The notes under the pieces: generated by a model
The model's database searches: none
Seen by the model: only the letters and a program-made list of their open reading frames with translations
What the model was told of the DNA's origin: nothing
NCBI GenBank assembly: GCA_012026835.1
Contig: VEPN01000031.1
Coordinates: 1 to 37,009 of the forward strand
Source: Candidatus Methanoperedens sp.
GTDB taxonomy: Archaea; Halobacteriota; Methanosarcinia; Methanosarcinales; Methanoperedenaceae
Length of the DNA stretch: 37,009 bases
Reading direction: 5' to 3'
In this document: in pieces, positions 5,458 to 8,085 of the stretch
Numbering within the stretch: position 1 is the first letter of the stretch
Layout of the letters: every line of letters begins with the position of its first letter
Position numbers and translations under genes: made by a program

Positions 5458-5753
5458 TGCAAAAACAGGACATAATGGGTTTTCTCCACGGCTTTCTACA
5501 TTCATTTCTCCAGGGCCTTGGCAACATGCAGAGGCATGGCGGGCTTGGTGATGAAATAGTCGAAGGCATAGAGAAATCAAGAAAAAAGCTGTTCACCATC
5601 GGGATTTCAATTGCGCTTGCAGGAACCGGTTTTTTCCTGATCCTGTGGGGAATAGCATCAACCATTGACACAATATTTGCGATGCGGGGCCTCGGATTTG
5701 TGATCGTAGGCATAATTGCGATACTGACCGGGGCACTCACATATAAAAAATAA
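5457..5753 (+). CDS. Two-helix membrane protein, YqjE-like
   Basis: A 98-residue protein starting at GTG, one base overlapping the preceding stop; GGGG in the upstream coding end serves as ribosome site. After an amphipathic N-terminus (GFLHGFLHSFLQGLGNMQ) it has two hydrophobic segments, about 45-65 (KLFTIGISIALAGTGFFLIL) and 75-95 (LGFVIVGIIAILTG). Size, topology and position directly after a DUF883-like gene recall the bacterial yqjD-yqjE pair, but this is analogy; sequence identity was not tested. A run of nine T follows the stop codon. Confidence 0.65.
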   Translation: MQKQDIMGFLHGFLHSFLQGLGNMQRHGGLGDEIVEGIEKSRKKLFTIGISIALAGTGFFLILWGIASTIDTIFAMRGLGFVIVGIIAILTGALTYKK

Positions 5754-5770: not shown

Positions 5771-5875
5771 GGAATTTAATCTGTCAGGATTTGTTTTGGG
5801 TTTTTAAATTACTTAGCCTTAATGTCCAGCTACCTGTTGAGGAAAAAAGCTAAACATAGACACCACAAAGTTCGA

Positions 5876-5909
5876 AAAGTTCGCAAAGCGTAGCATCTTT
5901 GCGAACTTT
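5876..5909. repeat. 13-bp perfect inverted repeat
   Basis: AAAGTTCGCAAAG (5876-5888) and its exact complement CTTTGCGAACTTT (5897-5909) flank an 8-nt loop. It is in the 376-bp non-coding region between two convergent operons (5754-6129). It shares the GTTCG core with the larger dyad at 5942-6010. It may be a bidirectional terminator or part of a repeat family. Confidence 0.7.
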
Positions 5910-5941
5910 GCACGCTGGTATGAAAAACGGCACCATATAAA

Positions 5942-6010
5942 CAACGAACTGGCACGAACTGAAACGAACTCATGCCATCAGAGTTCGTTTCAGTTCGTAT
6001 TAGTTCGTTG
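5942..6010. repeat. Palindromic array of six phased ACGAACT heptamers
   Basis: An 18-bp perfect inverted repeat, ACGAACTGAAACGAACTC (5954-5971) with its exact complement at 5981-5998 and a 9-nt loop. After a 3-nt mismatch the pairing resumes for 9 bp (CAACGAACT at 5942-5950 with AGTTCGTTG at 6002-6010). Read as DNA, ACGAACT occurs at 5944, 5954 and 5964 and its complement at 5982, 5992 and 6002, each with a 10-bp period, so all copies in one half face the same side of the helix. No gene overlaps it. Confidence 0.75.
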
Positions 6011-6129
6011 CTAAAGTCTGTTTTGTTGCTCTTTTTCGTGGTTATCTGTGAACGGTTCATAGCCGACTTTGCGGTAAGATTTACCCCACCGGCTCTGTGG
6101 ACACTAACCTTAGCCAAGTTTGCTTGAGG

Positions 6130-8085
6130 CTATCCCTCATATCTCACCGGGTGCTTCCTCAACCCTACGAGATGTTCTTTTCCGACAGGGATTTTGATAC
6201 TTGAACCTCTAAAATCATCTCCTATAGGCTCGTATTGGCCTCCAAGACAGCCGGAAAGGAAAGCTTCTGTCACAGCATTGAAGGACATACGGTTCTCGGG
6301 CCTGACAAAACCATGCCCCTCATCGGGGTAGAGTACATATGTAACAGGGATATTTTTCTCCTGCATGGCCCGGACTATTTGATCCGATTCATTCTGTTTG
6401 ACACGGGGGTCATTGGCTCCCTGGCCTATCAAAAGCGGCCTTTTTATCCTGTCAGCGTAACTCAGGGGCGAACGTCTGGTAAGGAAAGCCTGTCCCTCCT
6501 CTGTCGTGTGGTCGCCCACGCGTTTCTTAAATAGCTCGATCCCGGGTGTCCAGTATGGCGGAATTGTATTCAGCAGGGTTACAAGGTTAGAAGGACCCAC
6601 GATATCCACACCGCAGGCAAATTGATCGGGCGTCATGGTCATTCCCACAAGTGTGGCATACCCGCCATAACTTCCGCCCATAATGGCAATGCGTTCCGGG
6701 TCTGCTATACCTTCTTTTACAGCCCAGTGTGCAGCATCGATGATATCATCATGCATTTTCCCTGCCCATTCCATATTACCTGCGTTCAGGAACTTCTTGC
6801 CAAAACCTGTGGACCCGCGGAAATTAACAGAAAGGACTGCATACCCGCGATTAGCCAGCCATTGGTGAGATGGATTATAGCCCCATTCATCCCTTGCCCA
6901 CGGTCCGCCATGTACGTATAACACCATTGGCAGGGGCTTTTCAGGGCTGTCATGAATCTCTGTTCCCCGTGGTAATGTGAGATAACTGACCATAGGAAGT
7001 CCGTCGCGAGCCTTAATAATCACGGAATGCATCCTGGCCAGGGGAACACCTTCCAGGTCTTTACGATTTGTGAACAGGAAAAAAGCTTCATTTTTTTCAC
7101 GGTCATAGTGATAGAAACGCACAGGGCCATTGTCTATTATATAGGCTACGAGCCAGTGTTTATCATCCAGGGTGCGGCTGGCCACCTCTATGTCGCCAGG
7201 GGAAACGTTTCCAAGATATGCCAGGTCTTTTTCGATAGACTTATCCAGTACCTGCCACTGTTTTCGCTCATATGTAAAAATCACGGCCTGGATGTTCTTC
7301 TCTGTAGGATGGATTAATGCGTCATCAAAATCTGCCCGCGCATCCTGGGCTATCAGAGCCCGGTCGCCTGTTCCGAGATCGATAGCAGCCAGAGCCCCTG
7401 TATCACGGCCACGGCTGTCCACCATGTATAAGACTTTGCCCATCTTATCAAATCCCAGGGGAAATGTGGTTAGCGTGTCCTCCATTGCGATTTTCATGAA
7501 AGGCTCCCAGCCGCCGTTATTATCCGGCCTCAGGATTTCATTATCTCCATGTTGAGTGAAGCGCATGGCAAAGCGGATTTTATAGTCGTCATCAGTGACA
7601 AACTGCATGAATCCGTCATTCTTCTCAAGCAGAATTTTCTCACCTGTAACGATATTTACCTTATAAACATCATGGAACTTCGGATTTCTATCATTGAGCC
7701 CGATAAGGATCTCATCCGGAAACCTGAAGCTGACATTCTGTACCTGCGCATTCACACCCTCAAGCGGGGTAAGGTCCTTTTCCTGGCCTGTGTCCATATC
7801 AACACAGTGTACACGCCAGTTCTCATCGCCTTTTTTATCCTGAAGATAGAGAATATGCCTGTTTGTGTACGCCCAGAAATAAATACGGATACCGCGGCCT
7901 GTATCCCTGGTTACAGGTTGAGCAGATTCCGGATCATCCGGGGATCCGACCCAAACATTAAGCACACCGTCAAGCGGGGCCAGGTAGCTTATCTTTCTCC
8001 CATCAGGACTTATCCCGGGCGATGCCCTGTCCGGATTTCCGAAAAGCACTTTACGCGGGATCAGTGACTCATTTTTTGGAGTCAT
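6130..8085 (-). CDS. S9 family prolyl oligopeptidase-type peptidase
   Basis: A 651-residue cytoplasmic serine peptidase of the acylaminoacyl-peptidase/dipeptidyl-peptidase group. The N-terminal ~370 residues form the beta-propeller (repeats such as ISPDGRKISYLAP), which restricts access to small peptides. The C-terminal alpha/beta hydrolase domain has the oxyanion motif VLYVHGGPW, the nucleophile in GGSYGG (Ser472), Asp559 in GANDPR and His591 in GHGF, so the triad is complete. No signal peptide is visible. The ATG overlaps the stop of the HtrA-like gene (ATGA at 8082-8085), so the two are translationally coupled and probably share a role in peptide turnover. Confidence 0.9.
   Translation of the reverse strand: MTPKNESLIPRKVLFGNPDRASPGISPDGRKISYLAPLDGVLNVWVGSPDDPESAQPVTRDTGRGIRIYFWAYTNRHILYLQDKKGDENWRVHCVDMDTGQEKDLTPLEGVNAQVQNVSFRFPDEILIGLNDRNPKFHDVYKVNIVTGEKILLEKNDGFMQFVTDDDYKIRFAMRFTQHGDNEILRPDNNGGWEPFMKIAMEDTLTTFPLGFDKMGKVLYMVDSRGRDTGALAAIDLGTGDRALIAQDARADFDDALIHPTEKNIQAVIFTYERKQWQVLDKSIEKDLAYLGNVSPGDIEVASRTLDDKHWLVAYIIDNGPVRFYHYDREKNEAFFLFTNRKDLEGVPLARMHSVIIKARDGLPMVSYLTLPRGTEIHDSPEKPLPMVLYVHGGPWARDEWGYNPSHQWLANRGYAVLSVNFRGSTGFGKKFLNAGNMEWAGKMHDDIIDAAHWAVKEGIADPERIAIMGGSYGGYATLVGMTMTPDQFACGVDIVGPSNLVTLLNTIPPYWTPGIELFKKRVGDHTTEEGQAFLTRRSPLSYADRIKRPLLIGQGANDPRVKQNESDQIVRAMQEKNIPVTYVLYPDEGHGFVRPENRMSFNAVTEAFLSGCLGGQYEPIGDDFRGSSIKIPVGKEHLVGLRKHPVRYEG

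Follow-up and report, generated by a model that had tools for sequence, protein, structure and literature searches.

The window, by which the whole 37,009-nucleotide stretch of contig VEPN01000031.1 from Candidatus Methanoperedens sp. is meant, carries a large palindrome of repeated heptamers between two convergent genes, and the question which arises is whether this array is a dispersed repeat, a set of protein-binding sites or a structured RNA. An earlier note on this DNA placed the array between convergent operons; the gap which holds it measures 376 bp and lies between a 98-amino-acid ORF on the plus strand ending at 5753, which gave no Pfam match, and an S9 peptidase gene on the minus strand ending at 6130. 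The six heptamers described in that note, three facing three inverted copies at a 10-bp period, were found to be exact. ACGAACT occupies 5944-5950, 5954-5960, and 5964-5970 in the left arm (5944..5970, plus strand, spacers GGC and GAA), and AGTTCGT occupies 5982-5988, 5992-5998, and 6002-6008 in the right arm (5982..6008, minus strand, spacers TTC and ATT). The two rows of boxes are separated by an 11-nt variable centre, C-N9-G (5971..5981), and the longer 30-nt arms (5942-5971 and 5981-6010), 9 nt apart, show 90% complementarity, in agreement with the proposed palindrome and its 9-nt centre. The full 3+3 pattern has a single occurrence in the window, and none of 100 dinucleotide-preserving shuffles contained it. 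Alignment of 37 copies showed that the outermost boxes are also part of longer conserved terminal pieces, ATTAACA/TGTTTAT.

The suggestion that the array might be a genome-wide repeat was borne out. A two-box pattern gave 23 strand matches in the array's own genome, including 12 array sites, against none for a reversed-pattern control. A covariance model built from the 37 copies was used for searches of the genus and the order, and it matched all 31 Methanoperedens genomes, with 2 to at least 136 strand matches in each. The search of the whole genome and of relatives that had been advised thus revealed an array dispersed throughout the genus, and not one found here only with no conservation in close relatives. 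In the order-wide sample, the model matched 39 of 119 genomes, namely, the 31 Methanoperedens genomes and 8 of the 88 others; of these eight, five came from one sister family and three from two further genera of the same family as Methanoperedens. Among the matches listed, 55 of 80 contig titles named Methanoperedens or Methanoperedenaceae, 11 were of loosely named archaea, and 14 of bacteria or Archaeoglobus. One contig titled Bacteroidales (L099) is probably misbinned and was retained in the set because its arrays are of the Methanoperedens type. The contig scan yielded at least 116 stretches, from which 19 (13 titled bacteria or Archaeoglobus and 6 untitled) were removed by eye because their decamer arrays run in one direction, in most cases with identical spacers; these 19 were absent from the blind heptamer scan, the spacer test, and the neighbor-ORF and masked gene-placement analyses, and the unmasked placement kept all 116. 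Stretches L052, L072, and L125 contained about ten head-to-tail copies of the decamer ACGAACTTAG in Psychrobacter intergenic DNA (L125 is untitled, with flanks similar to the Psychrobacter ones), which is a different, simple tandem repeat. No match to the array was found in plasmid and phage collections. A viral origin was rejected, as the seven viral-contig matches lacked the 3+3 array and those with at least four boxes were head-to-tail decamers; the same results speak against the plasmid-type site considered earlier.

Some copies deviated from the 3+3 organization. One-arm arrays of three direct boxes were present at orthologous places in L067 (1289-1315) and L106 (2273-2299), with flanks 94% identical, showing that a single arm can persist. 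Single contigs also carried several one-arm arrays spread over a few kb (L093 at 205, 2936, and 6304; L083 at 5530 and 7027), partly as larger repeats, among small genes which by eye resemble toxin-antitoxin genes. Three consecutive array units in steps of ∼131 bp were located at L112:4959-5260 between apparent type I restriction-modification genes, the start of HsdM and the end of HsdS being recognized by eye from the sequence.

The comparison of copies within the array's own genome resolved the window copy into three layers. The array is carried by an inner element (5917..6064, plus strand) with the ends GGTATGAAAAA (5917-5927) and TTCATAGCC (6056-6064), which is common to unlinked copies in this genome. 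The inner element lies in a second phased palindrome, CGCAAAG/CTTTGCG with a period of 9, namely in its right arm. The left arm of this palindrome, together with a portion of the right one, spans 5862..5911 (plus strand), and CTTTGCGGT (6067..6075, plus strand) is apparently the rest of the right arm beyond the inner element. Both are enclosed by an outer element (5813..6112, plus strand) with the imperfect terminal inverted repeats TTAGCCTTAATGTCCAGC (5813-5830) and GTGGACACTAACCTTA (6097-6112); imperfect inverted ends were also observed at L010/L011. The inner ends of L116 are GGTATGAAT/ATTCATACC, and other copies are truncated. In four elements of the GGTATGAAAAA type, L018:2036-2170, L024:1836-1990, L173:1873-2010, and L175 (minus strand), an ACGGAT phased palindrome replaces ACGAACT. 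All four have a similar inner left end and three have like right ends, L024 being different. Hence, the same set of ends can enclose different cores, and the ACGAACT boxes are not obligatory ends.

Presence and absence of copies were compared between genome G000 and its closest relative G011. At L010 (2033-2308), a 276-bp insert in G000 is replaced by 6 bp in G011, with flanks 92.6 and 94.5% identical, and at L012 (1909-2069), a 161-bp insert faces 10 bp, the flanks being 91.3 and 83.2% identical. A third presence/absence pair was formed by L116 and L087. Another copy compared in this way, L011, has its right flank elsewhere in G011. No target-site duplication of 3 nt or more was found at the junctions of the two clean sites, L010 and L012. 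The L012 insert consists of a fragment of the inner element and part of the CGCAAAG palindrome, and insertion ends differ from copy to copy, unlike precise transposon ends. This insert takes the place of the final codons of an ORF, a putative gene, that continues to its own stop in G011, which hints at an insertion in G000, deletion in G011 being the alternative. In G011, the gap that corresponds to the window locus is next to an S9 peptidase with 93% identity across 255 residues; neither the outer element nor the GGTATGAA end is present there, but a different, degenerate ACGAACT palindrome is. Judged from these sequence comparisons, in which two copies face near-empty sites in G011, the repeat is mobile. 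The nucleoid or plasmid-type site put forward earlier is disfavored by the same empty sites and by the different copy in the window gap.

With regard to genomic placement, none of the 105 facing arrays fell inside a called gene when spurious short ORFs were masked, as compared to 72% of random positions; without masking, 17 of 165 arrays lay inside crude ORF calls. Tandem gaps were as frequent as expected (54 vs. 54.6), convergent gaps were in slight excess (28 vs. 20.2), and divergent gaps were fewer (12 vs. 19.2), with P of 0.058 over the three classes and 11 arrays at contig edges. The role of an operator or regulon was also examined and rejected, as the 109 neighbor ORFs used, of the 210 found, gave 156 families, none of which was present in more than four ORFs. 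The earlier view that a promoter operator is unlikely therefore agrees with both the low number of divergent sites and the lack of a recurrent neighbor gene.

The conservation of the boxes was evaluated against that of their surroundings. Five divergent copies compared with L009 differed at 13 of 187 box positions, 26 of 52 spacer, 29 of 55 centre, and 68 of 145 flank positions, four of these copies having been obtained by BLAST, which may favor intact boxes, and one via a flanking gene. For six close copies, the differences were 8 of 252 in boxes, 12 of 72 in spacers, 18 of 66 in the centre, and 21 of 180 in the flank. In the 37-copy alignment, for which only boxes with no more than one mismatch had been admitted, the box helices were 89–98% paired and the spacer helices 35 and 60%; owing to this pre-selection, the divergent copies provide the fairer measure. 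Four pairs were changed on both sides against 3.6 expected, and 260 of 500 shuffles reached the observed pairing; hence, covariation was not detected among the 37 copies. The unpaired spacers and the lack of covariation indicate that the box sequence, rather than the hairpin, seems to be kept, which points to recognition by a protein. The boxes being kept far better than spacers and flanks, as would be expected if a protein reads them, agrees with the protein binding proposed in the earlier note, and the structured RNA that it also considered is disfavored by the lack of covariation. The spacers of the two arms appeared to be anti-complementary (0.32 matched vs. 0.51 in shuffles), and this rule was dropped: the shuffle makes an unfair control, as the 38 elements are largely one family in two orientations. 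Other phased-palindrome families include complementary spacers.

The reading we consider somewhat favored is that of a non-autonomous, MITE-like dispersed repeat of Methanoperedens whose boxes are putative phased protein-binding sites. Each arm would offer three binding sites in a row to a sequence-specific protein, and the period of one helical turn would place these sites on one face of the DNA. The two arms would then face each other like both ends of a small mobile unit. The protein may be encoded elsewhere and could either help the repeat to copy itself or bind to it afterwards. The copy in the window may have arrived as part of a composite, in which an element with the CGCAAAG palindrome holds the ACGAACT unit. 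Against this reading count the lack of a target-site duplication at the two clean sites, the variable insertion ends, the different cores found within the inner ends, and the existence of one-arm arrays. No transposase gene bordered by the repeat was found among the neighbor ORFs or at 20 Y1 transposase loci. RAYT was rejected as a partner, since Y1 transposases were present in 23 of the 24 genomes searched and arrays were near only 1 of the 20 loci fetched; the sole Y1 locus with exact boxes was L208, where the proximity is likely due to chance.

It is unlikely that the repeat acts instead as a REP/BIME-like hairpin at the RNA level, with a downstream stem that would block exonucleases or terminate transcription bidirectionally. 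The dyad does fold very stably on both strands (RNA, −44.3 and −45.4 kcal/mol, z about −10; DNA, −29.6 kcal/mol, z −9.5), and this reading would also fit the slight convergent excess and the outer flanks, which are rich in A to the left and in T to the right (from 37 of the 38 elements, since one lay at a contig edge). Furthermore, in an ACAGGAT palindrome of Thiodictyon the innermost box is changed on both arms together, so that pairing may matter there. However, the lack of pairing in the spacers and of covariation argues against it, as do tandem gaps that are no rarer than expected, and a stem has no need of three identical direct boxes per arm. A single weak intrinsic terminator-like site was found in the region against 0.6 expected, the consensus flank TGTTTATAT is devoid of a terminator T run, and all 11 Rfam matches were below the gathering score.

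Passive debris, in which fragments are copied into breaks during repair and the boxes stay alike through exchange among copies instead of recognition, appears quite improbable. Variable insertion ends, the few target bases replaced without target duplication, and truncation points that differ between copies are what it would leave behind, but such exchange would homogenize the spacers as well, yet half of the spacer positions differ in the divergent copies while the boxes hardly do, and the same ends are met again on elements at unlinked locations. Less probable still is a chromosome-organizing site, at which a host protein would bind arrays chromosome-wide, as in nucleoid, macrodomain, or segregation systems. 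Although phased and conserved boxes, the intergenic placement, and the occurrence in every genus genome searched would suit such a site, the copy number varies from 2 to more than 100 strand matches, and the copies in G000 and G011 do not keep to the same positions.

The MITE-like repeat with its putative phased binding sites was compared with known systems. Phased binding arrays with short sites once per helical turn are familiar from iterons and operator repeats; in contrast, the present arrays are dispersed, mobile, and not tied to a regulated gene family. Like the MITEs described in PMC10969869, the repeat is short, non-coding, multi-copy, and intergenic, with inverted repeats and insertion polymorphism between relatives, but it is without target-site duplication or a cognate insertion sequence found, its ends vary between copies, and its core is a phased six-box array. 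Owing to the lack of target duplication and of a known partner, it is filed here as a variant of MITEs and not as a member. With the REP/REPIN elements and their RAYT transposases, as described in PMC3733652 and PMC3116915, it shares extragenic, dispersed, hairpin-forming palindromes, mostly in tandem and convergent gaps, but it has three direct boxes per arm and a length of about 65 bp as compared to 20–40 bp. According to the account in PMC3733652, most REP elements carry GTAG or CGTC motifs; such a tag is absent from 5934-6018 of the window, and only 7 of 37 copies have one within 15 nt on either side. The tandem repeats of Borgs, extrachromosomal elements of Methanoperedens, belong to the same biological system, but in the account of PMC9879509 these are perfect head-to-tail units virtually absent from host genomes, whereas the present repeat is found in host genomes as arrays that face each other and have variable spacers, and is hence a different thing. 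No description of the repeat or of its class was found in the literature covered, which left preprints and most subscription papers outside its scope.

Phased heptamer palindromes were not limited to ACGAACT. A blind scan for any heptamer at 8–12 bp facing an inverted pair gave 77 places against none in block-shuffled sequence, of which 59 were of the ACGAACT type, 6 CGCAAAG, and 4 each ACAGGAT, CACAGAG, and CACGGAT, proportions that are biased as the loci were chosen for ACGAACT. With a degenerate pattern, related palindromes were found in 18 of 294 genomes of a phylum sample, the reversed control giving none among the matches listed. BLAST with two of three related palindromes retrieved similar palindromes from Spirosoma, Thiodictyon, and Parabacteroides plasmids, and the third retrieved none. 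Another family of the phylum harbors CGCGAAG/CTTCGCG phased palindromes (L183, L184, and L197), with 26 matches per strand in genome G200 and 2 in G297, and CGCAGAT/CACAGAT phased palindromes were observed in genome G275 (L196), with 38 matches per strand. The only related sequence met in the literature covered is a CTCTGTG unit pair within a Bacteroides fragilis PCR primer given in PMC3090145. It is possible, though we hold it only tentatively, that phased heptamer palindromes form a broad, undescribed mobile class in archaea and bacteria, with a fixed 3+3 architecture at 9–10 bp, a family-specific heptamer "alphabet" (ACGAACT, CGCAAAG, CACGGAT, CACAGAG, ACAGGAT, or CGCGAAG), exchangeable cores, and a predicted DNA-binding protein of its own for each alphabet.

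Methanoperedens is an important consumer of methane and is known mostly from enrichments and metagenomes, and the plasticity of its genome is a live question because of the Borgs. The repeat, present in all the genus genomes searched, marks insertion differences between relatives, its boxes being kept as their surroundings drift. If the wider class is true, many unannotated intergenic palindromes of archaea and bacteria would have one common mechanism.
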